64,000 bases of DNA from Rhodanobacter sp. C06. GTDB lineage: Bacteria > Pseudomonadota > Gammaproteobacteria > Xanthomonadales > Rhodanobacteraceae. The position numbers were made by a program, and so were the translations under genes. The DNA is taken from the NCBI RefSeq assembly GCF_002001105.1, contig NZ_MUNP01000036.1, positions 1-64,000 of the forward strand. The letters are read 5' to 3'. Numbering within the stretch: the first letter of the stretch is position 1; the number at the start of each line of letters is the position of its first letter. The notes under the pieces were generated by a model. The model saw only the letters and a list, made by a program, of their open reading frames with translations. It had not been told where the DNA came from and did not search any database. Positions 246-47,083 of this stretch are shown here, in pieces.

Positions 246-1297
<1,052 letters not shown>

Positions 1298-5919: not shown

Positions 5920-5957
5920 GTGCAGCGGTGGAGATGCCGACCGTGCGCAAGCGCCCT

Positions 5958-7028
5958 TCAACCATCCTGCTCGATGTCGGTGATGTGCAGGCCGATGCTG
6001 ATGTCGCCGTCGCGGCTCGCGTCCATGCCGTGCACGAAGAACGGCTGCTGCCCGCGCGTGACGAAACCCTCGGCGCGCCACGCATCGAGCACGGACCGGG
6101 TAGCGGTCAGGCGCAGCTCGATCGCGTCGTAGCCGGCCGCGTAGCCCATCCGGCACAGCTCGCGGATCGCACGGCGATCGGCCGCGCGCACGCCGCCGGC
6201 GAACCAGGCGTCGGTCACGGTCATGAACCCCGGTGCGCGCACATTGGTCTCGCAGGCGAACCATGCCAGCAACGGCGCGCCCGGCGCCGGGGCGACCAGC
6301 AGGAAGCGGCGGCGTACCGCAGGCAGGCCGAGGAAGCGCCACTCGAGCATCCGCGTGCTGCGCACCGTGCACAGGCCCTCGCCATGTTCGGACTGCTCCC
6401 ACAGCGCCTGCATGCGGGGATCGACGGCGTCGTTCCAAGCCACGTGCAGGCCGGACCGTCGGGCCGGGATGCGCAGCCGGCGGCCTGCCGCGAGCACGCC
6501 ATCCAGCAGCGTGCCGCCGGCACGGCCCAGCGGACCCGGCAACACGCGCGACGCATAGCCGCGGTAACGCAGCGGCTTCACATGGCGCAGCAACTGGCCG
6601 GCCACGGCATAGCCGGCGCGTTTGCCGACTGCACCACCCTGCAAGTTGGTCATCGCATAGCCGAACGCGAAATGCTCCTGGCTGGCGAGCGCCACCGCAC
6701 GGATCAATCCCATCGCCGGCTTGAGCGAGCGGTGTCCGGGCAGCACGACGAAATGGCTGGCGCAGGCGACCAGCGACTCGCGCCCCTGCCAGAGCATCGG
6801 CCGCGGACCGGCGCCGACGGTGCCCACGATCTCGCCACTGGCGCGATGGCGCAGCAGCCGCAGCAGCGGACGTCCGAACGGGCAGTTCAGATAGAACACG
6901 TCGTACATGCGGCCGAGCTGGTCCCGCCAGCCGATATGGTCGCGCCAGAGGCCGATGACGGTATCGCGATCCCGTTCGAGCTGGCCTTCGACCACTTCGT
7001 AGCGATCGTCGGGAACGAGATCGTGCAT
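5958..7028 (-). CDS. GNAT/FemAB-like acyltransferase of the EPS locus
   Basis: A protein of about 356 residues, convergent with the lyase-like gene and divergent from the dioxygenase gene. No signal peptide or membrane segment is seen. The region around GEIVGTVGAGPRPML, SHFVVLPGHRSLKPA and YAMTNLQGGAVGKRAGY has the strand/loop order of GNAT N-acyltransferases, and a second similar half follows (VTDAWFAGG, ELRLTATRSVLDAWRAEGF). A double-GNAT layout like this is seen in FemAB-type and XrtA-locus acyltransferases, which move aminoacyl or acyl groups onto amines. ATG at 7028 is chosen because GAAGG precedes it by about 9 bases; an upstream extension to 7145 looks non-coding. Substrate is unknown. 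A role in acylating the EPS or the peptide is inferred from position only. Confidence 0.55.
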   Translation of the reverse strand: MHDLVPDDRYEVVEGQLERDRDTVIGLWRDHIGWRDQLGRMYDVFYLNCPFGRPLLRLLRHRASGEIVGTVGAGPRPMLWQGRESLVACASHFVVLPGHRSLKPAMGLIRAVALASQEHFAFGYAMTNLQGGAVGKRAGYAVAGQLLRHVKPLRYRGYASRVLPGPLGRAGGTLLDGVLAAGRRLRIPARRSGLHVAWNDAVDPRMQALWEQSEHGEGLCTVRSTRMLEWRFLGLPAVRRRFLLVAPAPGAPLLAWFACETNVRAPGFMTVTDAWFAGGVRAADRRAIRELCRMGYAAGYDAIELRLTATRSVLDAWRAEGFVTRGQQPFFVHGMDASRDGDISIGLHITDIEQDG

Positions 7029-7201
7029 ATCCAAGGCCTTCGGGTTGCTGAGGGCGGTGCCAGCGGATTCTGTGCGACGCCTGTCTCGCATACAAGACGA
7101 AATCGCCACGCCGAGGGCCGCCATCGGCATGCAGTAGGGAAGCACCGGACGATCCGACGCACAGGCGACGACAGCGGCAATGGCGCGACAGGGGCACGGC
7201 C

Positions 7202-8116
7202 ATGAACCAGCGCGCGGCTTGCATAGACATCGACTGGGCCACGTTCGATCCGTGGCACGTCCAGCCAGTGCGACACCGGCTGATGGAACACCCGCTGCTG
7301 CAGCCCGACCGGCTGGTGGAGTTCGGCCGGCGCCTCGAACGCGCGGCGCAGCTCTACTCGTTCAGCAACGACGTCACCGCCGGCACCAATTTCAGCAAGG
7401 CGGGCAGCACGAACCCGAACCGCAAGTCCGCGCAGGAAACCCTGAAGGACATCGACCACGCCAAGGCATGGATGTTGCTTCGCCATGTGCAGGGCGATCC
7501 GACCTACCGTGAGCTCGTCGATTCCGTGCTCGATGAAATCAAACCGCAGGTGGAACACAAGGACCCCGGCATGTGCTACCGGGCCGGCTGGATCTTCGTG
7601 TCCTCGCCACACACGGTCACGCCGTTCCACATCGACCGCAACCACGGCATCCTGCTGCAGATACGCGGCAGCAAGACCGTCTACGTATGGGACCCCGACG
7701 ACGTCACGGTGGTGAGCGACCGCGCGCGCGACTGGTTCCACGGCCATCACGAGCTTGCCTTGGTCGAGTGGCACGAGGAATTCCGCGCCCGCGCACATGT
7801 ATTCCACCTGCAGCCCGGCATGGGCGTGTACATGCCGCTGACCAGCCCGCACATGGTCGAGACCAGCGACGAGCCGTCGACGACGCTGAGCCTCAGTTAC
7901 AACACCCAGGCATCGCGTCGCAACGTGTTGCTGCACGTCGTGCACGACCGGATTCACGGCCTGGGGATCGACTTGCCTCCGGTCGGTCGGCGTCCCCGCT
8001 TCGATGCGTGGCTGCATGTCGCAGCGCATGCCGCGGATGGCGCGCGCAGGTACGCGCGCCATCGGCTGGGCCGGCCTGTCCGTTTCGATGGAGCGCCCTA
8101 TGCCTCGGACGATTGA
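7202..8116 (+). CDS. JmjC/cupin-type Fe(II)/2-oxoglutarate dioxygenase
   Basis: A 304-residue soluble protein. The metal-binding pair HxD is seen in TPFHIDRN near residue 143, and the distal His in SPHMVE near residue 217; [10 protein letters not shown] follows the first strand as in cupin_8/JmjC proteins. Enzymes of this fold hydroxylate amino-acid side chains, and stand-alone members in NRPS clusters act on free or carrier-bound amino acids. Its end overlaps the start of the first NRPS gene by 17 bp, so the two are probably translated together and it belongs to the peptide pathway. GAEGR-type motifs and a carrier domain are absent. The substrate, for example an amino acid on the first PCP, is inferred. 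The 173 bp upstream, shared with a divergent gene, show no convincing promoter. Confidence 0.65.
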
Positions 8117-11100
8117 GCAGGCCGGCTGGCCGCCTCGATCGCCGGCAGGCGCACAGGGCAAGTTCGATGAGTATGCAGATATGACGCTCGGCGATACGCA
8201 AAACATGGATTTGCTCGACGTGCTGCCCAGCCAGGCCGATGGCGCGGATGACGTATGGCGGCACCGGCAGTATCCGCTGGATTCCGCACTCGCCGGCGCG
8301 CTGGCCGGAGCCATGCGCCGATGGCCGCTCGGCCCGGCGCAACTGTTGAGCGCGGCCCTGGCGCTGGTCGAATCGCGCCTGACGGGGGTGGATGTCGTGC
8401 TTGCGACGGCACTGGACGCAACCGGCGTCACGCAGGGCTCCATCGAGGTGCCGCGAGCGGGATCGCGTGATGCATGGCTCGAAACCTGCGCGCATACGCT
8501 CGGTGACCCGGCAGGTGCGCCGGCGGACAGCGCATGGCTCGCCCATGACGGCAAGGCGATGCCAGCTTGCGGCGAAGTGTCGGTGCAGCTGGCGTGGCAA
8601 CTGCGCCTGTCGGACGACGCGCAGTTGCACGTCGATTTCCGCGGATCGCCGGACGGGACATCCGTCGACCTGCTGGCCGGCTGCGTGAAACGCACGCTAG
8701 CGGCATTCGGATCGGCGGAAGACTGCGCACTGGAATCGATCGACATCCTCGACCCGGCCGAACGCCACCGGCTGCTGGTCGAATGGAACGCGACGGACAT
8801 GCCGCGGCATGCCGGGGACACGGTGCACGGCCTGTTCGCCGCCGTCGCCAAGGATCACGCGGACCGGGTCGCGGTCGTCGACGACCAGCGCAGCCTGACC
8901 TACGCGCAGCTGGATCGGCTCGCGGAGGGACTGGCCTTGCGCCTGCGCGGCGCCGGTGTGGTGCGCGGCACGATCGTGGGCGTGATGCTGGATCGCTCGG
9001 TCGACGCGGTGGTCGCCATCCTCGGCGTGCTGAAAGCGGACGCAGCCTATCTGCCGCTCGACATGGCCTATCCGGCAGAGCGCGTGGCCTTCATGCTGGA
9101 CGACGCCGAAGTACGCATCGTAGTGACGCCGCGCATCGGGCGGGCGCTACCGCTTGCCGATTCGATCGTGCGCGTCTCCGTTGCCGCCGGGGAACGGCCG
9201 CCTGGCGATCCCATCGCCATCGAACTGGACGGCGAAGCACTGGCCTACGTGATGTACACCTCCGGATCGACCGGCACGCCGAAGGGCGTCGAGATCCGGC
9301 ACCGTTCCATCATCCGCCTGGTACGTGACGTCGAATACATCGATCTGGGGCTCGACACACGGCTGTTGCACGCAGCGCCGCTGGGCTTCGATGCCTCCAC
9401 GCTGGAGATCTGGGGCGCCCTGCTCAATGGCGGTTGCGTCATCGTGCACGACGAAGCAGTACCAACCGGCAGCGGCCTCGCCCGCAGCATAACGCGGCAC
9501 AACGTCAGCACGGCCTTCCTCACCACGGCGCTGTTCAATGCCATCGTGGATGTCGACCCCCGGCACCTGACCGGGCTGCGTGAACTGTTCACCGGCGGCG
9601 AGAAGGTCTCCGTACGGCACGTGCGCCGGGCGCTGGATGCGCTGCCCGGCACGACCATCGTCCATCCGTACGGCCCGACCGAATGCACGACATTCACCAC
9701 CACCCATCGCATACCGCGCGACCTCGCAGCCGACGCGCGCACGATTCCGATCGGGCGGCCCATCGCTGACACGCGGCTCTATGTGCTGAACCGGCGCATG
9801 GAGCTGCTGCCTACCGGCGTCGTCGGCGAATTGTTCGTGGGCGGGGCCGGCGTCGCGCGCGGCTACCTGCGGCGTCCCGAACTGAGCGCCGAACGTTTCG
9901 TGCCCGATCCATTCGGCGCCGCGGGCGAACGCCTGTATCGCACCGGCGATCTGGTGCGCTACCTGCCGGACGGCGCCATCGAATTCGTCGGCCGCATCGA
10001 TGGCCAGGTCAAGATACGCGGCTACCGCATCGAGACTGGCGAGATCGAGGCAGTCCTGGCGCGTCACCGCGCGATCGGCGCCTGCGCCGTGCAGGCGCGT
10101 GAAGACCAGCCCGGCCGCAAGCGCCTGGTCGCCTATTACGTAGGCAACGGCGTCGAGACCACTGCGCAGGCGCTGCGCGGCTACCTCGGCACCAGCCTGC
10201 CCGAGTTCATGGTGCCGGCATGCTATGTGCAGCTCGATGCGCTGCCGCTGACCACCAACGGCAAGCTCGACCGTCGCGCGCTGCCCGCGCCGGATTCCCG
10301 CCGGCCCGAACTTGCCGTGCCGTACGTGGAACCCGTCGGCCCTCTGGAGCAGCAGGCATGCGCCGTGTTCGGCGAACTGCTCGGACTGGACCGCGTGGGC
10401 CGCGACGACAACTTCTTCGAGCTGGGCGGCGATTCGCTGTCCGCCGTGCGCGCGGTCACCCGGCTCGGCGAGCTGGCGCCGCGCGAACTGACCATACCGA
10501 TGTTCTTCCAGAACCCCACGCCGGCGGCGCTGGCGCAGGCGATGGCAGGAAACACGCGGACCGCGCCCACCGCGTCCGGCCTGCCGCACGGCGGGCACGG
10601 CGTCGGTGCCGAGCCGATCGCGATCATCGCGATGGCCGGACGCTTCCCCGGCGCGGACAACGTCGAGGCGTTCTGGCGCAACCTGTGCGAAGGCCAGGAA
10701 TCGATCACCTTCTTCGGCGCCGACGAACTCGACCCGGGCATCACGCGCGCGGAGCGCGACGACCCGTCCTATGTGGCCGCGCGCGGCATCGTCGACGGCG
10801 TGGAGAACTTCGACGCCGCGTTCTTCGGCATCCCGCCGCGCGAGGCGGAGCTGATGGACCCGCAGCAGCGGATCTTCCTCGAACTGTGCTGGGAATGCCT
10901 GGAGCGCGCGGGCCATGCGCCGGGAACGCACACGGGACCGGTCGGCGTGTTCGGCGGCATGTACCACGCCACTTATTTCCAGCGTCATCTCAGTGCGCGG
11001 CCGGACCTGGTCGACAAGCTCGGCGCGTTCCAGGTGATGCTGGCCAACGAAAAGGATTTCCTGGCCACCCGCGTCGCGCACAAACTCGATCTGACCGGCC

Positions 11101-14100
11101 CGGCGGTCAGCGTGAACACCGCTTGCTCGACGTCGCTGGTGGCGATCTGCCAGGCCTTCGACGCCTTGCGCACCGGTCGTTGCACGATGGCGCTGGCCGG
11201 CGGCGCGTCGATCACCTGCCCGCCGCGCAGCGGCTATCTCGCCCAGGAAGGCACCATGCTTTCGCCGGACGGGCACACGCGCAGTTTCGACGCGGACGCG
11301 CGGGGCACGGTGTTCAGCGACGGCGCCGCGGTGGTCCTGCTCAAGCGGCTGTCCGATGCGATCGCCGACGGCGATCCGGTCTATGCGCTGATCCGCGGCA
11401 GCGCGGTGAACAACGACGGCGGCGGCAAGGCCAGCTTCATGGCGCCGAGCAGCGCGGGGCAGGCCGCGGTGATCGCCATGGCGCAGGCGGACGCCGGCGT
11501 CGACGCGCGCAGCATCAGTTACGTGGAAGCCCACGGCACGGCCACTCCGATCGGCGATCCGATCGAGATCGAGGGGCTGGTCAGCGCGTTCCGGCGCAAT
11601 ACGAACGACATCGGCTTTTGCCACGTCGGCTCGCTCAAGAGCAATGTAGGCCACATGGTGATCGCCGCCGGCGTGGCGGGCGTGATCAAGACGGCGTTCG
11701 CGCTGGCCGAGCAACGTATCCCGCCGACCCTGAATTTCCGCGCGCCCAACCCGAGTATCGATTTCGCCAGCTCGCCGTTCATGGTCAACCCGCGCCTGCT
11801 GGAATGGCACTCTGACAACGGGCCGTTGCGCGCGGGCGTCAGCTCGTTCGGCGTCGGCGGCACCAACGCACACGTAGTGATGGAGCAGGCCCCCGCACAA
11901 GAACCCTCCGATGCTGCCGACGGGCCGCAGTTGCTGCTGTTGTCGGCGCGCACGCCGACGGCGCTCGCCGCGACGGCGGAACGCGTGGCCGCACACCTGG
12001 GCACGCAACCCGGCGAGAACCTCGCCGACGTGGCCTGGACGCTAGCAGTCGGCCGCAAGGCCTTCGCCCATCGCGCCGCAGTAGTGGCCGGCGACGCGGC
12101 CGAGGCGGCCTTGCGCCTCGCCGAAGTTGCCGCCGCCAGCGTGCGCAGCCACCCCAGCCAGCCGGCCGACGTGGTGTTCCTGTTCCCTGGGCAGGGCTCG
12201 CCCTACCCTGGCATGGGCCGCGTGCTGCATGTCGCCGAGTCGGCATTCCGCGAGGCTTTCGACGCTTGCGTGGCGCATGCCGGCGAGGTGGTGGACTTCG
12301 ACCTGCGCGAACGCATGTGGAGCGACGATCCCGCGGCGCTGCTGCCCACCGCGGTGATGCAGCCGGCGATCTTCACGATGGAATACGCGCTAGCGCAATG
12401 GTGGATGAGCCTGGGCGTGCAACCGGCGGCGATGCTCGGCCATAGCGTCGGCGAGTTCGTCGCGGCGACCCTGGCCGGCGTGTTCGAGCTGCGCGACGCG
12501 ATGCGTCTCGTCGTCCGCCGCGGCGCGCTGATGCAGGCGCAGCCGGAAGGCGCAATGCTGTCGGTGCAGCTACCGCGCGAGGACGTGCTCGCGCGCCTGC
12601 CGGCGACGCTGTCGCTGGCCGTGGAAAACGCACCGGCCGCCTGCGTGGTGGCCGGACCGCATGCGGACGTCGCCGCGCTGCAGGCGGCACTGGAGAAGGA
12701 CGGTGTCGCCTGCCGCCCGCTGCGCACCTCGCACGCCTTCCACTCGGCGATGATGGAACCAGTGCTGGCGCCGTTCCGTGCCGAAGTGGAGCGCGTGTCA
12801 CGACAGGCGCCGCGCATCCCGCTGGTGTCGACCGCGACCGGCGACTGGTTGGGCGACGATGCGGCGCAGTCGATCGACTACTGGACGCGCCACCTGCGCG
12901 AACCGGTGCGCTTCTCCACCGCGCTCGAACGCGTGCTCGACAGACCTGCCCGCGTGCTGCTGGAAGTGGGTCCGCGCGCCACGCTGTGTTCGCTGGCGCG
13001 CCAGCAGCCGCTGCTGCGCCAGCAGCGCATCGCCGCCCTGCCCTCGCTCGGCGACGCGCCTCAGCTGGAACTGATGCAGTTGCGCCAGGCCGTCGGCGAG
13101 CTGTGGCGCCAGGGTGCGGCCATCGACACCGCACGGCTGGACCGACGCGCGCGGCGCCGGCGCGTATGCCTGCCCAGCTATCCGTTCGAACGCCAACGCC
13201 ATTGGATCGACGCGCCCGCGGCATCGGGCGTCCACGCATCGTTGCCACCCGCCACAACGTCCGAGTACCACGAAGGAACGCCCATCATGTCCGCGCCAAC
13301 CGTGTCGTCCGTGGAGCGCCAACCGCGCCTGATCGGCCAGCTCAAGGCCACCTTCGAGGATGTCGCCGGCATCGACCTGGCCGACGCCGATTCCGCCAGC
13401 CACTTCATCGAGCTGGGTCTGGACAGCCTGATGCTGACCCAGGTGGCGCTGCAGGTTTCCAAGACCTTCGCAGTGCCGGTGAGCTTCCGCCAATTGATGG
13501 GCGACTGCTCCAGCTTCGCGCAGCTGGCCGCGCTGCTCGACGCGCAGCTGCCACCCGAGGCGGCCGCCGCGGCAACGGCACCCGTCCTGCCGCAGCCGGC
13601 ACGGCTGGCCATGCCGGCGCTGCCTACCATCACCGGCGCGGCGCCGGACGGCTACGTGCAGCAGGTGATCGCGCAGCAGATGCAGCTGATGGCCCAGCAG
13701 CTGGCCCTGCTCGGCGGTGCGCCGGTGACACCGGTCGCCGTGCCGGCGCCAGCGGCCGCGTCGCCTGCACCGGCTGCCCCGGTCGCGGCCCCGGCCGTGG
13801 ACGAGGAAGCCGTGCTGGCCCATACCCGCTACGACGTCAAGAAGGCCTTCGGCGCGATCGCGCGCATCGACACCGGCAAGTTCGAGCTCACGCCGCGCCA
13901 GCAAGGCCGGCTGGACCGCTTCGTCGAACGCTACGTGGCGCGCACGCGCAAATCGAAGGAGTACACCCAGGCGCATCGCCCGCACATGGCCGACCCGCGC
14001 GTGGTCAACGGGTTCCGTCCCCTGCTTAAGGAAATCGTCTACCAGATCGTCATCGAGCGCTCCAAGGGCGCCCACCTGTGGGACCTGGACGGCAACGAAT

Positions 14101-15374
14101 ACGTCGACGCGCTGAACGGCTTCGGCATGAGCCTGTTCGGCTGGCAGCCAGATTTCGTGCTGGATGCCGTGCGCAGGCAGCTCGATCTCGGCTACGAGAT
14201 CGGCCCGCAGCATCCGCTGGCCGGCGAAGTGGCAAAGCTGGTCTGCGAAGTCACCGGGCACGAGCGCGCCGCGTTGTGCAACACCGGCTCGGAGGCGGTG
14301 CTTGGCGCGCTGCGCATCGCGCGCACGGCGACCGGGCGCGAGACCGTGGTGCTGTTCACCGGTGCCTACCACGGCATCGTGGACGAAGTGATCGTGCGCG
14401 GCACCAAGAAGCTGCGCGCGGTGCCGGCCGCGCCGGGCATCCTGCGTAACACCGCCGAACACGTGCTGGTGCTCGACTACGGCACGCCGGAGTCGCTGGA
14501 AATCATCCGCGAGCGCGCGCACGAGCTGGCCGCCGTGCTGATCGAACCGGTGCAGAGCCGGCGGCCGGATTTCCGCCCGGTCGAATTCCTGCGCGAGGTG
14601 CGTGCGATCACCGCGGCCAGCGGCACCTTGTGCATCTTCGACGAGATCGTTACCGGCTTCCGCAGCCATCCCGGCGGCACCCAGGCGCTGTTCGATATCC
14701 GCGCCGACCTCGCCACCTACGGCAAGGTCGTGGGCGGCGGCTATCCGATCGGGGTGATCGCAGGCAAACGTGAATACATGGATGCGCTGGACGGCGGCCA
14801 ATGGCAGTACGGCGACGACTCGATCCCCACCGTGGGCGTCACTTATTTCGCCGGCACCTTCGTGCGCCACCCTCTGGCGCTGGCCGCGGCGAAGGCGGTG
14901 CTCGAGCACGTGCGCGACGCCGGGGGCGCGCTGCAGGAACGGCTCAATGCGCGCACCGCGGCAATGGCCGACGAGCTCAACGGTTTCTTCGTGGAAGTGG
15001 GCGCGCCGATCGCGGTCAAGCAGTTCGCGTCGCTGTGGAAGACCCAGTTCCTGGAGGAGCATCCGCTGCAGGATCTGCTGTTCGCGATGATGCGCAGCCG
15101 CGGCGTGCACATCCTCGACAACTTCCCCTGCTTCTTCACCACCGCGCACAGCGAGGCGGATTTCCAGAAGATCACCCAGGCCTACAAGGAATCGGTGGCC
15201 GAGTTGCAGGAAGCCGGTTTCCTGCCGCGCAACGTCCCCCCGACGCAGACGGTGATGGATGCGGGCAAGCCGCCCGTGCCCGGCGCGCGGCTGGGCCGCG
15301 AACCCGACGGGCGGCCATGCTGGTTCGTGCCCAACCCCGCGCAACCAGGCAAGTACATGAAGGTCGAGTCATGA
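8100..15374 (+). CDS. Hybrid NRPS-PKS: (half C)-A-PCP-KS-AT-ACP-aminotransferase
   Basis: A cytoplasmic assembly-line protein of 2,424 residues. Residues 1-215 resemble only the C-terminal part of a condensation domain and have no HHxxxDG. The A domain spans 220-730 ([11 protein letters not shown] near 384, [28 protein letters not shown]). PCP Ser is in LGGDSL near 777. The ketosynthase spans 837-1260 (Cys in NTACSTS near 1007, His in EAHGTATP, His in SNVGHM). The acyltransferase has GHSVGE near 1448 and HAFH, the malonyl-CoA signature. ACP Ser is in GLDSL near 1775. From 1900 on there is a class III aminotransferase (Lys in TYGKVVGGG near 2209). The code read by eye for the A domain is DALFFGPTF(K), loosely Val-like. 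The KS-AT-ACP-AMT order is that of mycosubtilin-type beta-amino acid synthesis. Start: GGAG lies 6 bases before ATG 8100. It overlaps the next gene by ATGA. Confidence 0.9.
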
Positions 15375-18300
15375 ACACGCCCATGGACGCGCATGCCGGC
15401 CTCTCGACCGTCGACTACGATCCGTTCGCCAGCCCCGCGCTCGAACGCGTGGTGCCCAGCACCGAGGCGCAGCGCGAAATCTGGCTGGCTGCCAAACTGG
15501 GTGAGGATGCTTCGCTGGCCTACAACGAAGCGGTCGCGCTGCACCTGCACGGCGCGCTGGACCGCACGGCCATGCTCGACGCGCTGCAAGCGCTGGTTGA
15601 TCGCCACGATGCGCTGCGCGCCAGTTTCGGCCCGGACGGCGAAACCTTCTGCGTGGCCGGCGGCGTCGCGCTCGACGTGCGCCAGACCGACCTGGGCGCG
15701 CTCGATGCATCCACGCGCATTGCCGCGCTGGAGGAGCGCCGCGCGCAAGTCGTGCTGCTGCCGTTCGACCTGGAAACCGGACCGCTGTTCCGCGCCGAAC
15801 TGCTGCGCCTGGGCGAGGGCGAGCACGTGCTGCTGCTCAGCGCGCACCACCTGGTCTGCGACGGCTGGTCGTGGTGGGTGGTCCTGCGCGAACTGGGCAC
15901 GCTGTACGCGTTGCGCGGCGGCGCCGGCAACGCAAACCTGCCGCCAGCCCCCTCCTTCGCCGACTACGCCTTGCAATGCGCCGGACAGGCGGACCGCCAC
16001 GCCCGCGCCGCCGACGAGGCCTGGTGGGTAGCGCATCACGCCCATCGTCCACCGGCGCTGGACCTGCCGGGCGACCGCCCGCGGCCGCCACGGCGCAGCT
16101 TCGCTGCCGGCCGCGAGGATCATGTGCTCGGCGCCGACCTGGTCGGCGCCTTGCGCCACTTGGGCGCGCGTCACGGTGCAAGCCTGTTCGCCACCTTGCT
16201 GGGCAGTTTCGCCGGCTTGCTCGGCCGGCTGGCCGGGCAGGACGAAGTCGTGCTCGGCATCCCCGCAGCAGCGCAGGCGAACGAAGGTCTGGGCGACCTG
16301 GTCGGCCACGGCGTCAATCTGCTGCCGCTGCGCTGCACGGCCGATCCGGCGCTGCCGTTCACGCAGCTGCTTGGCGCGGCGGGCGGCGAGCTGCTCGATG
16401 CGTTGGAGCACCAGCGCTGCACCTTCGGCAGCCTGCTGCAGCAGTTGGACATCGCGCGCGATCCCGCTCGCCTGCCGCTGGTCAGCGTGCTGTTCAACAT
16501 CGACCAGGCGCTGGAGCAGGAAGGCGAAGCCTTCCCTGGGCTGCGACTGGACTTCGCCAGCGTGCCTCGCCGCTACGAGAACTTCGAACTGTTCATCAAC
16601 GCGGTGCAGGAACATGGTGGCCTGCGCCTGGAATGCCAGTACAACAGCGGCCTGTTCGATGCCGCCACCGTACGTCGCTGGCTGCGCGCCTACGAGGCCT
16701 TGCTGCGCGCCGCCGTGACGCAGCCCGACCATCCGCTCGGCGCCTTGCCGCTGGTCGACGCAGCGGCGCAGCGCGAGCTGGCCGGACTGCAGCCGCCCGA
16801 GCGTCAATGGAGCGGCCCGTCGACCATGCACGGCGCGTTCGAACGCCAGGCGTCTGCTTCACCGGAGCGCCCCGCACTGCGCTGCGGCGACGAGACACTG
16901 AGCTACCGCGCGCTGGACGAGCAGGCCAACCGCATCGCCCATGGCCTGATCGCGCACGGCGTTCGCCCCGGCGATCTCGTCGGCATCGCGTTGGAGCGCG
17001 GCCCCGCCATGCTCGCCGCCTTGCTCGGCACGCTCAAGGCCGGCGCCGGCTACGTGCCGCTCGATCCCGGCTTCCCCGCCGAGCGGCTGGCCTACATGGT
17101 CGCCGATGCGAAGCTGGCGGTGCTGCTCACCCAGGCTTCGCTGGCCGCACGCTTCGATCGGCCGGACCGCCCGCCGATTGCACTGGATGCACCGCCCGCC
17201 GGCTGGGACGCGCTGCCCGTCACGCCGCCCGCGCTGTCCGTCGATCCCGCGGCTACCGCCTACGTGATCTATACCTCCGGCTCCACCGGTCGGCCCAAGG
17301 GCGTGGCGATCCCGCATCGCGCCGTGGCGAACTTCCTCGCCAGCATGGCCGAGCGTCCCGGCCTGCACGCCGACGACCGCCTGCTCGCGGTCACCACGCT
17401 GTCCTTCGACATCGCGGTGCTGGAACTGCTCGGGCCGCTGGGCGTGGGCGGCTGCGTGGTGCTGGCCTCGCGCGAGCAGGCGATGGACGGCGAGGCGCTG
17501 AAGACCCTGCTGGCCGACCACGGCATCACGCTGATGCAGGCTACGCCGGCCAGCTGGCGCATGCTGCTGCAGGCCGGCTGGCAAGGCGGCGCCGGCTTCC
17601 GCGCGCTGTGCGGCGGCGAGGCGCTGGCGCCGGATCTGGCGGCCGCACTGCTGGCACGCTGCGCCGCGCTGTGGAACATGTACGGCCCCACCGAGACCAC
17701 GGTGTGGTCGACCTGCGCGAAGCTGGAAAAGGATCAGCCGATCACCATCGGCACGCCGATCGCGAACACCACGGTGTGGGTGCTGGACGAGCGCCGCCAG
17801 CCCTGCCCGCTGGGCGTGCCGGGCGAGCTGTGGATCGGCGGCGCGGGCGTGGCCATCGGTTACCTGCACCGCCCGGAACTCACCGCCGAGCGCTTCGTCG
17901 CCGATCCGTTCTCCGCTGCACCCGACGCACGGCTCTACCGCACCGGCGACCGCGGCCGCTGGCGCGCCGACGGCACCCTCGAACACCTCGGCCGCGCCGA
18001 CTTCCAGATCAAGCTCCGCGGCTTCCGCATCGAACCCGGCGAGATCGAGGCGCAGCTGGCCGGTCATCCGCCGGTGACGCAGGCGCTGGTGATGGTGCGC
18101 GAGGATCGTCCGGGCGACGCGCGCCTGGTCGCCTACCTGGCGAGCGAAACGCCGGTGGACGAAGCCGCCCTGCGCGGCCACCTGCGCGAACACCTGCCCG
18201 AATACATGCTCCCGCAGCACTTCGTGGTGCTGGCCGCGCTACCGCTGCTGCCGAACGGCAAGATCGACCGCGCCCGCCTGCCGGCTCCGCTCGCCGCCGC

Positions 18301-21300
18301 GCCGGCCGTCGCGCGCGCTGCGCCGCGCGACGAACTGGAGCGCCAGATCGCGCAGGCGATGGCGGCCGTGCTGGGTGGACTGGAGCCGGGCCTGGACGAC
18401 GACTTCTTCGAGCACGGCGGGCACTCTCTGCTCGCCGCGCAACTCACCGCGCGCCTCAATCGCGAGCTGGGTCTGGCGCTGCCGCTGCGTACCCTGTTCG
18501 AAGCGCCAACCGTGGCGCGGCTGGCGGCAGCGATACGCGCGGCAGGTGCAGCCGGCAAACAGGAGCCGCGCCAGATCGCGCGCCTGGCTGACCGCGAACG
18601 CGCGCCGCTGTCGCTGATGCAGCAACGCGTGTGGTACCTCGAACAGCTCAGGCCCGGCGGCGTGGCGTTTCACACGCCGTCGGCGCATCGCCTGAGCGGA
18701 TCGCTGGATCTCGCCGCCTTCGAGCAGGCGCTGCGCACCATGGTCCGCCGCCAGCCGGTGCTGCGCACCTCGATCGAGCCGGACGCGACGGGCGCGATGC
18801 AGCGCATCCACGCCGAACTGAAGGTGGAGCTGCCGCTCGAGGATCTCTCCGGCATGCCGGCAGACGAACGCGATGCCTGGCTGCGGCGCCGGCTGGACGC
18901 GTTGATCGCCGAACCGTTCGACCTGGCCACGCCGCCGCTGTTCCGCGCCCGGCTGTTCCGGCTGGGCGAGCAGGAACACGTGTTCTTCTTCATGACCCAC
19001 CACATCGTCTGGGACGGCTGGTCGTTCGACCTGCTGTACCGGGAGCTGAGCGCACTCTACGAGGCCTTCCGCACCGGCCAGCCCGATCCGCTGCCGCCGC
19101 TGGCGGTCGAGTACGGCGACTTCGCCGCGTGGCAGCGGCAGTGGATGCAGGGCGAGGAACTGCAGCGCCAGCTCGACCACTGGCTGTCCCGCCTCAAGGG
19201 CCGCATCGAACCACTGGAGCTGCCTGCCGACCGCGTGCGACCGACACGCATGTCCGGGGCCGGCGCCACCGAGTGGATCGTGCTGCCATCCGAACGGCTG
19301 ATCGCCGTGCACGCGCTGGCGCAGCAGGCCGGCACCACGCCGTTCATCGTGCTGCTCGCGGCCTACTTCGCACTGCTGCACCGGCTCGGCGGCCAGCGCG
19401 ACCTGGTGGTGAGCACGCCGGTGCGCGGCCGCGATGCGGTGGAGCTGGAACCGATGATGGGCTTCTTCGTCAACGCGCTGCCGCTGCGCCTGGCGATCGA
19501 TCCACAGGCCAGTTTCCTCGACACTTTGCGTGCGGTGCGCACGATGGTGCTCGACGCCTTCGCGTGCCCTGACGTGCCGTTCGAGCACCTGGTCAAGGCG
19601 CTGCGCTTGCCGCGCGACGAGAGCCGGCCGCCGCTGGCGCAGGCGATGTTCTCTTTCCAGGACGTGCGCGGCCGCGCCACCACCTGGGGCGGCGTGCAGC
19701 ACGAACACCTGCCGGTGTTCCAGCGCGGCAGCACCGAGGATCTGGGCCTGTGGTTCATCGAGCAGGAGCAGCGCCTGCTCGGCGGCATGGGCTTCAATGC
19801 CGACATCTTCGACCCGTCCACCGCCGCACGTTTCCGCCGCGGCTACGAGACCCTGCTGGAAGGCGCGCTGGCCGATCCGCGTCAATCGATCGCGCAACTT
19901 CCGCTGCTGCCGGCCGACGAGCTGGCGCGGCTGCACGCCTGGAACGCCACCAACGCGGCGATTCCCGTGCCGACCATGCACGGCGCGTTCGAACGCCAGG
20001 CGTCTGCTTCACCGGAGCGCCCCGCACTGCGCTGCGGCGACGAGACACTGAGCTACCGCGCGCTGGACGAGCAGGCCAACCGCATCGCCCATGGCCTGAT
20101 CGCGCACGGCGTTCGCCCCGGCGATCTCGTCGGCATCGCGTTGGAGCGCGGCCCCGCCATGCTCGCCGCCTTGCTCGGCACGCTCAAGGCCGGCGCCGGC
20201 TACGTGCCGCTCGATCCCGGCTTCCCCGCCGAGCGGCTGGCCTACATGGTCGCCGATGCGAAGCTGGCGGTGCTGCTCACCCAGGCTTCGCTGGCCGCAC
20301 GCTTCGATCGGCCGGACCGCCCGCCGATTGCACTGGATGCACCGCCCGCCGGCTGGGACGCGCTGCCCGTCACGCCGCCCGCGCTGTCCGTCGATCCCGC
20401 GGCTACCGCCTACGTGATCTATACCTCCGGCTCCACCGGTCGGCCCAAGGGCGTGGCGATCCCGCATCGCGCCGTGGCGAACTTCCTCGCCAGCATGGCC
20501 GAGCGTCCCGGCCTGCACGCCGACGACCGCCTGCTCGCGGTCACCACGCTGTCCTTCGACATCGCGGTGCTGGAACTGCTCGGGCCGCTGGGCGTGGGCG
20601 GCTGCGTGGTGCTGGCCTCGCGCGAGCAGGCGATGGCCGGCGAGGCGCTGAAGACCCTGCTGGCCGACCACGGCATCACGCTGATGCAGGCTACGCCGGC
20701 CAGCTGGCGCATGCTGCTGCAGGCCGGCTGGCAAGGCGGCGCCGGCTTCCGCGCGCTGTGCGGCGGCGAGGCGCTGGCGCCGGATCTGGCCACCGCACTG
20801 CTGGCACGCTGCGCCGCGCTGTGGAACATGTACGGCCCCACCGAGAGCACGGTATGGTCGACCTGCGCGAAGCTGGAAAAGGATCAGCCGATCACCATCG
20901 GCACGCCGATCGCGAACACCACGGTGTGGGTGCTGGACGAGCGCCGCCAGCCCTGCCCGCTGGGCGTGCCGGGCGAGCTGTGGATCGGCGGCGCGGGCGT
21001 GGCCATCGGTTACCTGCACCGCCCGGAACTCACCGCCGAGCGCTTCGTCGCCGATCCGTTCTCCGCTGCACCCGACGCACGGCTCTACCGCACCGGCGAC
21101 CGCGGCCGCTGGCGCGCCGACGGCACCCTCGAACACCTCGGCCGCGCCGACTTCCAGATCAAGCTTCGCGGCTTCCGCATCGAACCCGGCGAGATCGAGG
21201 CGATCGCCCGCGAGGACACCGCGGTGAACGACGCCGCGGCCGTGGTGTGCGAATTGTCCGCCAGCGACCAGCGTCTGGTGCTCTACGTGGCCGCCACCGA

Positions 21301-21766
21301 GGCGGAGGCCACGCTGCTGCCGCGCCTGCGCGGCGTGCTGGAATCTCAGCTGCCCGGCTACATGCGGCCGCAACACATCGTGCGGCTGGAAGCGTTCCCG
21401 CAGACGCCGAACGGCAAGCTCGACCGCAAGGCACTGCCGCTGCCCGCGACGACGAGCGGGGACGAGCCCGCACCGCGCAGTGCGGACGACGATCCGCGCC
21501 GCCGCTACCTGGGCGCGGTGTGGTGCGAGCTGATCGGCGTGGGCGAGGTGGCGTCGCAGGACAACTTCTTCGACGTGGGCGGGCACTCGCTGCTGGCGGT
21601 GGAGCTGGCCACGCGCGTGCAGCGCGAGACCGGCGTGCGGTTGAACCTGCTGGATATCGCCAGCAGCACCCTCGCTGCGCTGGCCGGGCAGTTGCCCGAA
21701 CCCGCCGCGGCCAGGCCGCACGTTCCGTTCGGCCATCGCCTGCGGCGACTGCTCGGCCTGCACTGA
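15371..21766 (+). CDS. NRPS, two modules: C-A-PCP-C-A-PCP, both predicted for glycine
   Basis: A protein of 2,131 residues. C1 (about 25-460) has HHLVCDGWS near 157, the sequence type found directly after aminotransferase domains, so it should accept the amino-acyl chain from the preceding PKS module. A1 is about 485-900 plus its C-terminal subdomain; PCP1 Ser in HGGHSL near 1018; C2 with HHIVWDGWS near 1207; A2 from 1535; PCP2 Ser in VGGHSL near 2072. Both A domains give the same by-eye specificity code DILQLGMVW(K), almost the known glycine code DILQLGLIWK. The two A cores are a near-perfect duplication, while the C domains, PCPs and the A2 C-terminal subdomain differ. There is no epimerisation or thioesterase domain. 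The ATG overlaps the stop of the upstream gene. The protein ends soon after PCP2 with a basic tail. Confidence 0.93.
16821..18052 (+). repeat. A-domain duplication, copy 1
   Basis: 1,232 bp coding for the large part of the A1 domain recur at an exact offset of 3,150 bp. Line-by-line comparison finds 6 substitutions and no indels (99.5 % identity). The edges are sharp: left of CGACCATGCA and right of GAGATCGAGGCG the copies are unrelated beyond normal domain homology. Confidence 0.97.
19971..21202 (+). repeat. A-domain duplication, copy 2
   Basis: The partner of 16821-18052, coding for most of A2. Three of the six differences change residues (Asp to Ala, Ala to Thr, Thr to Ser in PTETT/PTEST); none of these is a specificity-code position. 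The unit ends just inside the C-terminal subdomain, after the EPGEIEA motif. Confidence 0.97.
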
Positions 21767-21889
21767 TGCGGAACACGCGTGCGGCAACACCGATCCACCC
21801 ATCGCCATACCGAAATGCCATGGCCATAATGACGACACCGTTTCGACCGATGCATGTTGGACAGGGGATTGTTCGAAACAGGGGACAGC

Positions 21890-24800
21890 ATGAATGACAG
21901 TCTTGATGGCCGATACGCGGAACCGATGACCGGCTCCGCCTTTCCGCTGGGCGAAATCCGCAAGGAGAAATGGCTGGCCGGCCAGTACGGCGATGGTGCC
22001 GCGCTGGCGCTCGCCCACCTCACCGTGCTTCGGCTGGATGGCCCCTTGCACGTCGCCGTGCTGGAACAGGCTGCCGCCCGGCTGTGGCGGCGGCACGCCG
22101 GCCTGCGCATCCAGCCGTCCGCCGACGGCCACACGCAGCACGTGCATCACGACCTGCCGCTGCCGTGGGCGCGGCACGATTTCTCCTCCGCCGGCGAAGC
22201 CGCGGAGGCGCGCCTGGCCGCGCACGTCCAGGCGCGTCTGCGCGTGCCGTTCGATCCGTGCGTGCCGCCGCTGCTGCGCCTGGAACTGCTGCGCTTGGGC
22301 GAGGAGCGGCATGCCCTGCTGCTGCACGCCCACGAACTGGTGCTCGACCGCCGCGCCACCGGCCGCCTGCTGGCGGAGCTGGCGCAAACCTACGGCGAGC
22401 TGCTCGCGGGGCAGGAACCGGCATTCGCACCGGTGCCCCTGCCGTCGCCCGACGACGCGGTGCCCGCCGAAGCGCTCGCCTGGTGGCGCGCACGCCTGGC
22501 CGCCCTGCCCGATCCGCTGAACCTGCCCACCGATCGTTCGGCGCCGCTACGGCCGCGATTCGACGCCGTCGACGCTCGCCGGGTGCTACCTGCGGCGACG
22601 GTCGCCGGCTTGCGCCGGTTGGCACAGGACTGCGGGCTGTCGCTGCGCGACGTGCTGCTCGGCGGCTACGCGGCCTTCCTGATGCGCATGAGCGGGCAGC
22701 ACGACTTCGCCGTCGGCGTGCCGGTCGGCATGCACGGCGAGCCGCTGCACTTCCTGCCGCTGCGCCTGCGCGTGGAACCCGGGCAAAGCGTCGCGGAATT
22801 GCTCGCGCGCACCGCCGCTGCGCTGCACGAGGTCCATGCGCACGGCCAGGTCACGCTGATGGGCTTGCTGCGCGCGCTAGGCCTGCACCACGGCGGTGCG
22901 GAAGCGGCCCTCGGCATGGTCTCGTTCGAGTTCGATCCGGGCATGCCCGGGTTTGCCTTCGCCGGCCTGCGCCACCACGTGATCGACGGCGGCCGCGCGG
23001 CGCTGCTGGGCGAGCTGCACGCACGTGCGGCACTGGAAGGCGATGCACTCGGCATCGACCTGCACGGCTCGGCCGCGCGCTACGACGTGGCCACGCTGCA
23101 GCGCTGGCTGGGCCACTACGCCACGTTGCTGGAAACGCTCGCCGGCACGGCCGCGCCGGCTGCATCGACGATCGCCGAGTTGCCCATGCTCGATGCCGCC
23201 GGACGCGCCCAGGTGCTGCAGGCGTGGAACGACACCGCGCGCGACTACGACCTCGGCAGGGGGCTGCCGGCGCTGATCGCGGCGCAAGCGCGACGCACGC
23301 CGGAAAACATCGCCGCCGAATGCGCCGGCGAAGCGCTGGATTACGCCACGCTCGAGCGGCGCACGGATGCCCTTGCATTGGCGCTGGCCCGTCGCGGCAT
23401 CGGCCGCGGCGATCTGGTCGGCGTGTACGTGCCGCGCAGCCTGGACATGCTGGTCGCCGTGCTGGGCATCCTCAAGAGCGGTGCCGCCTACGTGCCGCTG
23501 GACCCGGAATTTCCGCAGGAGCGACTCGGCTACATGGCCGGGCATGCCGCCCTGCGCTACCTGCTGGTCACGCCCGTCCTGCATCCTCCTCCCGAATTGA
23601 CGGAGGGGCGCGGCTGCCTGGTGGTCGGCGAGCTGGCGGCCGAGCCGGCGGACGGACAACCGCTGCCGCCCGTGCGCGGCGACGACCTGGCCTACGTGCT
23701 GTTCACCTCCGGCTCCACCGGCCAGCCCAAGGGCGTGCGCATCCTGCACCGCAACCTGGTCAACTTCCTGCTGGGCATGCGCGAGCAGCCGGGCTATGGC
23801 GCCGGCGACACGCTGTGCGCCGTCACCACGCTGTCGTTCGACATCGCCGGGCTGGAGCTGTACCTGCCGCTGATCGTCGGCGGCCGCATGGTGATCGCCT
23901 CCGAGACCGAGCATCGCGACCCGCCGGCACTGTGCGAACTGATGGCGAACAGCGGCTGCACGGTGCTGCAGACCACGCCCTCCCTGCTGCGCCTGCTGCA
24001 AGGCATCGGCCGCGAGGACGTGGTGCGCGGACTGCGCCTGTTCGTCGGCGGCGAGGCGATGCCGCTGGCGCTGGCGCGCTCGCTGGTCGGGCGCTGCCGC
24101 GAATTGTGGAACCTGTACGGCCCCACCGAGACCACGATCTGGTCCTCGGTGGCGCGCATCGAACCGGGCATGGAGCCGATCCCGCTCGGCAGGCCGATCG
24201 CCAACACCCGCATCTACGTGCTGGACGAGCGCGGCCAGCCGCAGCCGCCGGGCGTCGTCGGCGAGATCTGGATCGCCGGCGATGGCGTGGCCGACGGCTA
24301 CCTCAACCGCCCCGACCTCAGCGCCGAGCGCTTCGTCGACGACCCCTTCGCCGGCGGCCGCATGTACCGCACCGGCGACCGCGGCTGCTGGCGCGACGGC
24401 CAGCTGCACTTCAGCGGCCGCGCGGACGACCAGATCAAGATCCGCGGCTACCGCATCGAGCCGGGCGACATCGAGGTGGCGGCCGCCGCCGAGCCGGGCG
24501 TGCGCGAGTGCGTGGCGGTGGCACGCAGCTTCGGCGACAACGACCTGCGCCTGGTGCTGTACGTGGCCGCGGCGGTGGACGATGGCCTGACCGAGCGCCT
24601 GCGCGCCCGCCTGCATCAGAAGCTGCCCGTCTACATGCAGCCACAGCACATCGAGCGGCTGGACGCGCTGCCGAAGACACTGAACGGCAAGATCGACCGC
24701 AAGGCCCTGCCACCACCATCCGCGGCCGCGCGGCGCGGCGTGCGGACGCAAGCAGGTGGACTGACCGATCCGCGCCAGGCCTATCTCGCCACGATCTGGC

Positions 24801-25099
24801 GCGAACTGATCGGCGTGGAACAGGTGGGCGCCAACGACAGCTTCTTCGACCTGGGCGGCCACTCGCTGCTGGCGGCGGAATTCGTGGCGCGCGTGCAGCG
24901 GGAGACTTCGGTGCGACTGCAGCTGATCGACGTGGCCTCCGGCACGCTGGCGATGCTGGCCCGCGAATTGCCCGAAAAGGCGAAAGACGCGCCGCGATTG
25001 CCGCTGCTGCTGCGGCTGCATCGCTGGTTCGGGATGGGCCTGTGGTTCGTCATGGACAAAACATGGTGGGGGGATGGCCTTGATTGGCTTTGCCAGTGA
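21890..25099 (+). CDS. NRPS, terminal module: degenerate C-A-PCP, predicted for glycine
   Basis: A protein of 1,069 residues. The N-terminal condensation fold (about 15-440) is recognisable, but its catalytic motif reads HELVLDR near residue 147 in place of HHxxxDG: the second His is Glu and the Gly is Arg. The A domain (about 459-920) has [11 protein letters not shown] near 604, [10 protein letters not shown] near 742, YRTGDRG and [10 protein letters not shown]. Its by-eye code DILQFGLIW(K) differs from the glycine code at one place. PCP Ser is in [10 protein letters not shown] near 992. No TE, reductase or terminal C domain follows, only about 75 residues with a basic, aromatic-rich tail. 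ATG 21890 is preferred (AGGGG six bases upstream); ATG 21854 is possible. The 123-bp gap before it is the only clear break in the NRPS run. Its end overlaps the next glycosyltransferase gene by 26 bp. Confidence 0.9.
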
Positions 25100-26210
25100 A
25101 GTCTTTGCGATATCGGCGCTTGCCCTCGTGCACGTCTTCGCCGGCTATCCGCTGTGGGTCGCCGCGCTGGCGCGCTGGAGGCCGCGCCCGGTGCAACGGC
25201 GCGCATGGACACCGCGCGTCACCGCGGTGCTCGCCGTGCACGACGGCGCCGCGCACGTGCGCGCCAAGCTCGAAGGCCTGCTCGCCCTGGACTATCCGGC
25301 GGAACGGCTCGACATCGTGGTGGCCTGCGATGGCTGCCGCGACGACACCGCGGCGCGTGCCCGCGCGCTCGGCGATCCGCGCATCCGCGTGCTGGAGTTT
25401 GCCGAACGACGCGGCAAGGCGGCCTGCCTCAACGACGCGGTGGCCGAGGCGCGCGGCGAGGTGCTGCTAATGACCGACGTGCGCCAGCGGCTGGAGCCGG
25501 ACGCGCTGCGCCAGCTGGTGGCGAACCTGGGCGATGCGCAGGTGGGCGCGGTCGGCGGCCAGCTGCGCCTGTTCGACGCGCACACCGGCTTCGCCCGCGG
25601 CATCGATGCGTACTGGCGCTACGAGACGCTGATCCGCGCCAGCGAAAGCCGCTCCGGCTCGGTGATCGGCGTCAGCGGCGCGCTGTACGCGATGCGCCGC
25701 GCGTTGTTCCTTCCGCTGCCGGCGGGCACCGTGCTGGACGACGTACTGGTGCCGATGCAGGTGGCCGCGGCCGGGCTGCGCGTGGTGTACGAGCCGGCCG
25801 CGGTGGCCTGGGACGGCAGTTCGCAGCAGCCGCGCGAGGAGCAGCGCCGCAAGATCCGTACGCTGGCCGGCAACTACCAGCTGGTGCAGCTGGCGCCGTG
25901 GCTGCTGCTGCCGTGGCGCAACCCGCTGTGGTTCCGCTTCGTCAGCCACAAGCTGCTGCGCCTGCTGGCGCCGTGGCTGCTGCTGGCGCTGGCGCTCTCG
26001 GCAACGCTGCTGGCGACGCGGCATGCGCTGTTCGCGGCGACCGCGCTGGGGCTGCTCGCGGCACTCGCCGCGGTGGTGGCCGGACGCCTGCTGCCGACGC
26101 TGGGCGGGCGCCAGCCCGTGCGGCTGCTGACCGCGTTCTGCTATCTCAACCTGTTCGCCGCGCAGGCGCTGCTGGCGTTCGCGCGCAACCGGAGGCTGCA
26201 CCTGTGGTGA
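25074..26210 (+). CDS. Membrane glycosyltransferase, family GT2
   Basis: A 378-residue protein with one N-terminal membrane segment, a GT-A catalytic domain and three C-terminal membrane segments (about 285-375), the layout of processive or EPS GT2 enzymes. The donor-binding part shows [26 protein letters not shown] and [10 protein letters not shown], where the usual DxD is replaced by [17 protein letters not shown] and [14 protein letters not shown] are the acceptor and (Q/E)xxR-type motifs. It adds one sugar to the lipid-linked repeat at the cytoplasmic face. The start ATG 25074 follows GGGGGG and lies inside the last codons of the third NRPS gene, so peptide and EPS genes appear to be one transcription unit. 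Confidence 0.85.
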
Positions 26211-26286
26211 TCCAGTGGCCCGTTCGATGCACCCCTTCGGCGGCATGCAACGGCGCGCCTGCGGGCGCCTGCGGGGAGTGGTGCGC

Positions 26287-32932: not shown

Positions 32933-33570
32933 GGATCCGGCCCACGCGACAGCAAGTGCTTGGCCTGCTGCCCGAACGCCTGGTGCTGGTGCGCGGCCCG
33001 CGCGAGCCGGGCGCGCTCTACCTCAGCTTCGACGACGGCCCGCATCCGGAGCACACGCCCCGGCTGCTGGACCTGCTGGCCCGGCACGACGCGCGGGCGA
33101 GCTTCTTCCTGGTCGGCCAGCGCATCGAGCAGCACCCCGCGCTGGTCGAACGCATCGTGGCGGAGGGCCACACCCTGGGCAATCACTCGTACAGCCACCC
33201 GCTGTTCCACCGGCTCAGACTGCGCGAGCAGCTGGACGAGGTGGAGCGCACCGACCGTCTGCTGGCGGATTTCGACCGTTCCGGCCCGCACCGCTTCCGG
33301 CCGCCGCGCGGCGTGGTGTCGCTGCCGCTGCTGCTGGCCTTCGCGCGGCGCGGACGCAACCTGGCCTACTGGTCCTACGACAGCCTGGATTACCAGCCGC
33401 AGCCGCCCGATGAGCTGGCCGCGCGGCTGCTGCAGCGACCGCCGGTCGACGGCGACGTGCTGCTGATGCACGACGACAGCGACTGCGCGGCGCAGATCCT
33501 CGCGCACCTGCTGCCAGCCTGGCGCACCACCGGCCGCAGCCTGCGCGCGCTGCCGGCGGTGGCCGCATGA
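32929..33570 (+). CDS. NodB-type polysaccharide deacetylase (CE4)
   Basis: A 213-residue protein, close to a bare NodB domain, with no signal peptide. Motif 1 SFDDGPHPEHTP supplies the catalytic Asp and the first metal Asp; motif 2 NHSYSHPLF supplies the metal His pair; motif 3 is RPPRG; the late motif LMHDD carries the second catalytic His. All key CE4 residues are present. It should remove N- or O-acetyl groups from a HexNAc-containing intermediate, possibly at the cytoplasmic stage because no export signal is seen. A free amine made this way could be an attachment point for an acyl or peptidyl group. GTG start, coupled by GTGA to the upstream GT. Confidence 0.87.
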   Translation: MRIRPTRQQVLGLLPERLVLVRGPREPGALYLSFDDGPHPEHTPRLLDLLARHDARASFFLVGQRIEQHPALVERIVAEGHTLGNHSYSHPLFHRLRLREQLDEVERTDRLLADFDRSGPHRFRPPRGVVSLPLLLAFARRGRNLAYWSYDSLDYQPQPPDELAARLLQRPPVDGDVLLMHDDSDCAAQILAHLLPAWRTTGRSLRALPAVAA

Positions 33571-44387: not shown

Positions 44388-44421
44388 CGGCTCGTCTCCT
44401 TCGTGCATGTCGTTCGACGAT

Positions 44422-45777: not shown

Positions 45778-45810
45778 GGGTTCGCGGACTCTCGAATGCC
45801 GCACTGCGGC

Positions 45811-45838: not shown

Positions 45839-45923
45839 AGCCGAACGCCGTCGCGGGATGCACGCACTTTTCCGCGACGACGACCACCGTGCCGCGACCA
45901 CCACCAGAGAGCACGCAACGCCG

Positions 45924-47018: not shown

Positions 47019-47083
47019 GACGCGGCTACCTATTGGCGCGTGCTTGCAGTGGGCGTTTCTTGTTTTGCGAAACCGCAAAAGAC

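Follow-up and report, generated by a model that had tools for sequence, protein, structure and literature searches.

A hybrid NRPS-PKS module in an exopolysaccharide locus of Rhodanobacter, with a possible role in polysaccharide decoration

Introduction

What may a hybrid assembly line of nonribosomal peptide synthetase and polyketide synthase (NRPS-PKS) genes contribute to a locus for exopolysaccharide (EPS) synthesis? The question is raised by a contig of Rhodanobacter sp. C06 (NZ_MUNP01000036.1; genome size 4.14 Mb), the first 64 kb of which, here called the window, were analysed. Positions ~1-41882 are a Wzx/Wzy EPS locus with a complete set of genes for this route (priming transferase, glycosyltransferases, flippase Wzx, polymerase Wzy, chain-length and export proteins), and in its midst lie three giant NRPS/PKS genes, N1 to N3. 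An earlier note on this DNA had proposed that a short peptide is made in step with the EPS and may be attached to it. The description that we favour, at somewhat short of an even chance, is that of an EPS factory with a plug-in peptide module, the peptide of which would serve as a decoration of the EPS.

Conservation of the NRPS genes within the EPS locus

The NRPS module very likely belongs with the EPS locus in the family of this strain. In a survey of 233 family genomes, with the acyltransferase (AT) end, acyl carrier protein (ACP) and aminotransferase (AMT) part of N1 as the query, this region was found with at least 69% identity in 82 genomes and with 49-56% identity in 18 more. All 82 genomes with a close NRPS possess a priming transferase of family TIGR03013 over the cut-off. 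The two are on one contig in 67 genomes, with a median distance of 10.4 kb, and within 30 kb of each other in 66 of these (same strand in 65 of the 66), the outlier being genome G015 with 196 kb. Thus, the EPS locus of this family contains the NRPS as a conserved component and not as a chance neighbour. For the 18 divergent NRPS, TIGR03013 is present in 17 genomes and on the same contig in 15, in all 15 cases at 30 kb or less, and four NRPS matches below 49% identity are from genomes without TIGR03013 over the cut-off. Two genomes with a divergent NRPS (G067 and G150, 53% identity) have the order ketosynthase (KS)-AT-ACP-AMT, followed by condensation (C), glycine-like adenylation (A) and carrier (T) domains, in the same EPS slot and between the same flanks. 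The direct neighbour of the NRPS varies by genus, with a family 2 glycosyltransferase (GT2) gene adjoining in some and the hydrolase genes discussed below in others.

In the genus of the window the NRPS occurs in 5 of 15 genomes, each time on the same contig as TIGR03013 and at most 30 kb away from it. The comparison with related genomes that the earlier note had suggested therefore did not reveal an absence of NRPS genes from the EPS loci of all close relatives. Its premise that such EPS loci normally hold no NRPS is not supported in this family: the gene for a highly conserved 400-amino-acid protein (34733-35935, plus strand), which has no significant family match and serves as a marker of this EPS locus, is present in 94 of the 233 genomes, and the search detected the NRPS in 82 of those 94. 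Of the other 93 carriers, 91 have a marker protein with 71-97% identity, and G020 and G030 have one with 60 and 62%. Among the best 80 named loci from GTDB, the unit was found in Rhodanobacter, Dyella, Luteibacter, Frateuria, Pseudoxanthomonas, Lysobacter and Luteimonas, and also in Variovorax, Xenophilus, Thiomonas, Ideonella and Lautropia.

An exchangeable module and its hydrolase

The marker gene also occurs in 12 genomes in which the search found no NRPS. Nine of these (G019, G021, G024, G025, G030, G033, G043, G165 and G178, with G030, G043 and G178 under 90% complete) lack hydrolase 1 too, an alpha/beta hydrolase with a cysteine at the nucleophile elbow that is encoded at 35937-36746 on the minus strand. 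Most of the backbone of the window was seen only in G165 and G178; in the other module-less genomes examined, several glycosyltransferases are missing or have diverged. The locus of G178 retains the lyase-like gene, GT2, Wzy, Wzx, a PaaK-like ligase and glycosyltransferases, with ~1.4 kb from the lyase-like gene to GT2. The position of the hydrolases is occupied by two Acyl_transf_3 genes in G165 and by a GNAT gene in G178, and AsnB and NAD-synthase-like genes are found in the module-less locus of G019. Since the marker gene, and in G165 and G178 most of the backbone, is kept while the NRPS and hydrolase 1 are missing, also inside genera (g4 and g23 contain loci of both kinds), the locus appears to consist of an EPS backbone and an exchangeable module.

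A new finding is that hydrolase 1 and the NRPS occur together. Both are present in 96 of the 233 family genomes and both absent from 130, whereas hydrolase 1 is found alone in three (G047, G060 and G134) and the NRPS alone in four (G004, G005, G015 and G220). The assemblies of G047 and G134 are 86% and 77% complete, and G060 carries a piece of N1 that reaches the contig start and was missed; as the query covers only part of N1, fragmented assemblies can escape the count. G015 has a thioesterase-like motif instead of hydrolase 1. In the window, hydrolase 1 lies ~10.8 kb beyond N3, with EPS genes in between. The protein is related to TIGR03100 but stays under its cut-off (78 versus 168 bits), and its structural model is that of an alpha/beta hydrolase (mean pLDDT 88; structural matches with TM ~0.5-0.65). 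Cys111 and His242 are each present in 33 of 33 aligned sequences. Hydrolase 2 (36746-37519, minus strand) is an alpha/beta hydrolase relative with neither Ser nor Cys at the expected elbow; an alignment of 28 sequences shows no conserved one there either.

The peptide module is best read as a JmjC/cupin protein gene, N1, N2, N3 and hydrolases 1 and 2. The PaaK/CapK-like adenylate-forming ligase (29281-30639, plus strand, start approximate) was considered as a further part and ruled out, because G019, G025, G165 and G178 have it although the search found no NRPS in them. This ligase, the 400-residue protein and hydrolase 1 were not named in the earlier note as genes of the locus.

The assembly line and its predicted product

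The assembly line consists of N1 (8100-15374, start approximate; A-T-KS-AT-ACP-AMT), N2 (15371-21766; C-A-T-C-A-T) and N3 (21854-25099; C-A-T), all on the plus strand and with 87 bp between N2 and N3. That these are genuine NRPS/PKS genes, as claimed previously, is borne out by their domains and by the catalytic motifs for KS, AT, A domains, carriers and the aminotransferase Lys, which are all present except for the C motif of N3; two carrier motifs of N2 fell outside the pattern of the motif scan and were located by reading the sequence. The three condensation-domain matches of the whole genome are all inside the window. The first ~200 residues of N1 carry no Pfam domain and by eye resemble a C-domain end. 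The span 7202-25099, which had been taken as assembly line throughout, does contain the three NRPS/PKS genes, but it opens with the cupin gene (7202-8116, plus strand). By its Cupin_8 and JMJD5/FIH matches and modelled fold, the encoded protein is a JmjC/FIH-type hydroxylase of the Fe(II)/2-oxoglutarate kind, with His143, Asp145 and His217 invariant in 29 aligned sequences, and it could hydroxylate the peptide.

The A-domain regions of N2 at 16806-18064 and 19956-21214 form a 1259-bp repeat with 98% DNA identity between dissimilar flanks, which suggests a recent duplication or gene conversion. The pocket codes, identified by motif, are DALLFGPTF for N1, DILQLGMVW for both A domains of N2 and DILQFGLIW for N3, and those of N2 and N3 are similar to what we take to be the glycine code, DILQLGLIWK. 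In the named loci, the starter code could be read in 68 of the 80, giving 50 of the kind DA(L/F)L, which presumably resembles valine-type codes, 12 of the kind DVQ, which we take to resemble proline codes, 4 DILM and 2 DFW. Among 75 entries, the first A domain of N2 has the presumably glycine-like code DI(L/M)Q in 62 and a serine/threonine kind of code in 5, with 1 unreadable and the remainder other. The second A domain was not found in 38 of the 75, some of which end at a contig edge, and its code was unreadable in others. The chains of linear gramicidin synthase were the sole solved comparison obtained, and the pocket of their second A domain, which we assume to be glycine-activating, reads partly differently from the glycine code. 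The glycine call is therefore based on the code DILQLGLIWK.

Taking domain order and these codes together, the expected product is a beta-amino-acid/glycine peptide, formed from a starter amino acid and one malonate, with conversion of the keto group to an amine, and extended by glycine units. The starter and N2 codes and the domain order lead us to expect a short product, probably of three to five units or thereabouts, and a fatty starter is not indicated. The last carrier of N2 and a basic tail (G.RLRRLFG kind) are retained in many loci, even where the preceding A domain is degenerate or lost.

Fate of the peptide

In the mechanism that we propose, the EPS genes from priming transferase to export protein, including the PaaK-like ligase, the deacetylase and the 400-residue protein, would make the polysaccharide. 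N1 would lengthen the starter amino acid by one malonate, its aminotransferase would swap the keto group for an amine, and N2 and N3 would add one to three glycines. Since no thioesterase domain was found, and a search for Pfam chain-release domains (thioesterase or reductase) on N2 and N3 was negative, hydrolase 1, with its conserved Cys and His, is proposed to remove the peptide from the last carrier; on sequence grounds it is a candidate enzyme for release or transfer. The acceptor would most likely be the lipid-linked repeat, through one of its hydroxyls or amines, with the amines that the deacetylase sets free as candidate sites, and the peptide would then be exported by Wzx, Wzy and Wza as part of the EPS. 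That the peptide indeed ends up bound to the EPS may be given rather less than an even chance. More tentative still is the wider proposal of a new class of peptide-decorated EPS, in which an NRPS-PKS diamino-acid/oligoglycine peptide is transferred to the lipid-linked repeat by a Cys-type hydrolase acting as peptidyl transferase, and in which the module is a cassette on one backbone that in relatives is swapped for acyltransferase, GNAT or amidotransferase cassettes and that, within the family, is not found in genomes with a strong exosortase match.

It is nearly as likely, though again well under an even chance, that the product is a free small peptide such as a signal, metallophore or biofilm modulator, that it is co-expressed with the EPS as both serve biofilm life, and that hydrolase 1 is a hydrolysing thioesterase. 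Several observations favour such release and weigh against attachment to the EPS. Among the 63 named loci of at least 20 kb (17 of the 80 are shorter), a strict EPS gene, i.e. a priming transferase, GT2, Wzy, Wzx, export, chain-length or kinase gene similar to that of the window, is present in 48, and the number rises to 62 only when hydrolases and others are counted. Two Variovorax loci (L102 and L106) and one of Xenophilus (L099) have N1-N2 and the hydrolases, but EPS genes were not recognised in flanks of 3-5 kb. The flanks of ~3-5 kb in Variovorax, Xenophilus and Lautropia contain a phosphopantetheinyl transferase, an autotransporter, a TctC-type protein or housekeeping-type genes; in Variovorax boronicumulans the autotransporter gene is immediately upstream of the NRPS (L106:621-4070). 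In the Thiomonas locus (L104), there are matches to the chain-length and kinase genes, and a sugar epimerase adjoins. Furthermore, TIGR03013 over the cut-off is missing in 7 of 15 chosen NRPS genomes. A GGSMGG/GWSMGG thioesterase-like motif, detected by pattern match and not by domain search, is present in six named N2 proteins of Lysobacter and Pseudoxanthomonas (L054, L055, L056, L079, L086 and L093, hydrolase 1 being present too in four of the six) and in G015. It precedes the last N2 carrier in the Lysobacter loci L054, L055, L056 and L086, the order in L054 being C-T, thioesterase-like stretch, T, and it could free the peptide ahead of any transfer. The N3 condensation motif reads HELVLDR where HHxxxDG is expected, and no known enzyme for coupling a peptide thioester to a sugar was found. 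A single promoter-like site on the plus strand in the N2-N3 gap (21802-21830) is at chance level and weak evidence, and the counts of family genomes are uncorrected for phylogeny or shared descent. The EPS-poor loci and the thioesterase-like motifs fit a released peptide, possibly one that acts without EPS. Of the proposal that the peptide is made in step with the EPS, the conserved place of the NRPS in the EPS locus is supported; the Variovorax and Xenophilus loci speak against a strict need for EPS. There is also a precedent, as mutanofactins are described, in the text consulted, as an NRPS/PKS product that modulates biofilm (PMC11782227). However, the mutanofactin genes described there include ABC transporter genes, and no dedicated small-molecule exporter is present among the annotated genes of the locus in the window. 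The tight family-wide linkage to EPS genes, and the fact that two NRPS versions occupy the same EPS slot, likewise speak against a free peptide.

A PKS-type protein, RkpA, has been proposed to act in the synthesis of an anchor or carrier for the rhizobial K-antigen, and an anchor or carrier of the polysaccharide, lipid-like or peptide in nature, could be envisaged here as well instead of a decoration of its repeat unit. The PKS module would suit such a role, and the basic, amphipathic-looking tail on the terminal carriers in many loci could bind a membrane. We nevertheless consider it improbable, since a short, glycine-rich product is predicted, without indication of a fatty starter, and since the EPS marker gene occurs without the module in nine relatives. 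Slightly less probable again is a hitch-hiking NRPS without joint function, which would agree with the occurrences outside the family that lack recognised EPS genes nearby, but against which speak the close linkage in 66 of 67 genomes despite differing neighbours and the joint presence or absence of the NRPS and the distant hydrolase 1.

Relation to exosortase systems

The locus had been labelled XrtA-type, and this label is not supported. No match to exosortase (PF09721) was detected in the genome of the window; PF07589 (PEP-CTERM) gave no match either, and likewise none in controls. Three EPS families are over the cut-off in the locus (TIGR03013, TIGR03007 and TIGR03027), with TIGR03018 and TIGR03016 under it. 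Across the family, a strong exosortase match (E<1e-60) was found in 20 genomes and a weaker PF09721 match in 16. When the 136 family genomes with TIGR03013 over the cut-off are sorted, 99 have the NRPS, 19 a strong exosortase match, 18 neither and none both. In G149 and G194, a 40-kb region around the exosortase-type priming transferase contains EPS genes that are distant relatives, and it gave no match to the NRPS, PaaK, hydrolase or 400-residue protein. A general rule that exosortase excludes the NRPS was rejected, as it applies to the 20 strong matches of the family and fails on the weaker family matches, 7 of these 16 genomes carrying the NRPS, and on genomes outside the family: the 15 NRPS genomes reached via other loci include 2 with strong (E<1e-50) and 8 with weaker exosortase matches. 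One of these 15, G235, is probably a family member, with match coordinates identical to those of G027. Replacement of the XrtA decarboxylase set by the NRPS was rejected as well, TIGR03099 being over the cut-off in 6 of 233 genomes, of which 5 also have the NRPS.

Organisation of the locus

The neighbours listed in the earlier note (priming transferase, GT2, Wzy, Wzx, GT4 enzymes, deacetylase and TviC-like epimerase) were all found. At the left edge of the window there is, judged by eye, an apparent end of a UDP-sugar dehydrogenase gene, just upstream of the gene for a TviC-like UDP-N-acetylglucosaminuronate 4-epimerase (247-1297, plus strand, start approximate; 428 bits, under the equivalog cut-off of 760), and the polysaccharide of the locus probably holds uronic acid. 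The plus strand continues with the priming polyprenyl glycosylphosphotransferase of family TIGR03013 (1590-3053; 550 bits, cut-off 393) and a heparinase-like protein, possibly a polysaccharide lyase, with a weak Hepar_II_III_C match below the cut-off (E 0.031) and strong coding bias (3109-5919, start approximate). The NRPS block lies between these genes and the glycosyltransferase, Wzy and Wzx genes, as had been stated, although the same-strand arrangement is interrupted by a minus-strand gene at 5958 to ~7028. Its product, GNAT-like by eye and without a match in family searches, separates the lyase-like gene from the cupin gene.

From the cupin gene through the gene for the 400-residue protein (7202-35935), there is an unbroken run of plus-strand genes with overlaps of 4-26 bp at several junctions, and a pattern scan, which is weak evidence either way, found no plus-strand terminator pattern in 5900-25300. 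The reported 26-bp overlap is correct, with the N3 stop at 25099 and the ATG of the GT2 gene (25074-26210) at 25074. The run further includes the Wzy-type polymerase with a Wzy_C domain (26215-27723), the Wzx-type flippase (27734-29284), the GT4 glycosyltransferases GTa (30648-31763), GTb (31760-32932) and GTc (33567-34736), and a polysaccharide deacetylase of the NodB family (32929-33570). Beyond the hydrolases, the minus strand encodes an outer-membrane beta-barrel of the TIGR03016 kind (37516-38826) and a tyrosine autokinase of the TIGR03018 kind (38903-39670), both below cut-off, followed by chain-length determinant TIGR03007 (39667-41211; 374 bits, cut-off 279) and the Wza polysaccharide export protein TIGR03027 (41253-41882; 210 bits, cut-off 180).

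The EPS locus is followed by a carbohydrate-use locus (42789-58384, both strands) with GH39, GH1 and glucoamylase-like genes, ABC transporter parts, a TonB-type barrel and LacI; a gene of the tryptophan-halogenase family (52452-53975) is located within it.

Implications and comparison with known systems

If the peptide does become part of the EPS, assembly-line peptide synthesis would be a means of modifying extracellular polysaccharides, and natural products and slime or biofilm glycans, which are annotated apart, would become linked. Software that labels the locus as a secondary-metabolite cluster with no known product would then be searching for that product in the wrong location. Even a free peptide would leave an EPS-tied peptide system across a bacterial family as a testable lead to a role in biofilms, and an assay of the Cys hydrolase, a single gene, would go far towards settling the matter. 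As judged by titles and abstract openings, no work linking an NRPS with such an EPS locus was recognised in the literature; a Dyella genome paper, as far as its text was available, describes a polyketide/non-ribosomal peptide cluster of which the product is unknown.

The main text of Haft 2006, in the part consulted, does not mention peptide synthetase, polyketide, ligase, hydrolase, decarboxylase or aminotransferase (PMC1569441). XrtA/PEP-CTERM EPS loci are similar to the present one in their priming, chain-length and export families, and the hydrolases are related to TIGR03100/TIGR03101. The Rhodanobacter locus differs by the NRPS-PKS module, by a genome without exosortase match, and by kinase, outer-membrane and hydrolase genes that are under the curated cut-offs. 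In iturin/microcystin-type PKS modules, the order KS-AT-ACP-AMT yields a beta-amino acid. N1 shares this order, but in contrast to those systems an A domain apparently loads an amino acid as the starter, some 3-5 units are predicted, and no thioesterase domain was found. For the sheath thiopeptidoglycan of Sphaerotilus, we know of no NRPS. According to the text consulted, it is a peptide-bearing glycoconjugate with glucuronic acid and an amino sugar (PMC11087309), so that a bacterial polysaccharide, these two sugar types and a peptide form the likeness to the present system, which is known from its genes alone. Finally, the muf cluster for mutanofactin in Streptococcus mutans has its own ABC transporter genes, and a Wzx/Wzy locus is unmentioned in the text consulted (PMC11782227), but it is alike in that a hybrid PKS/NRPS product is tied to biofilm.

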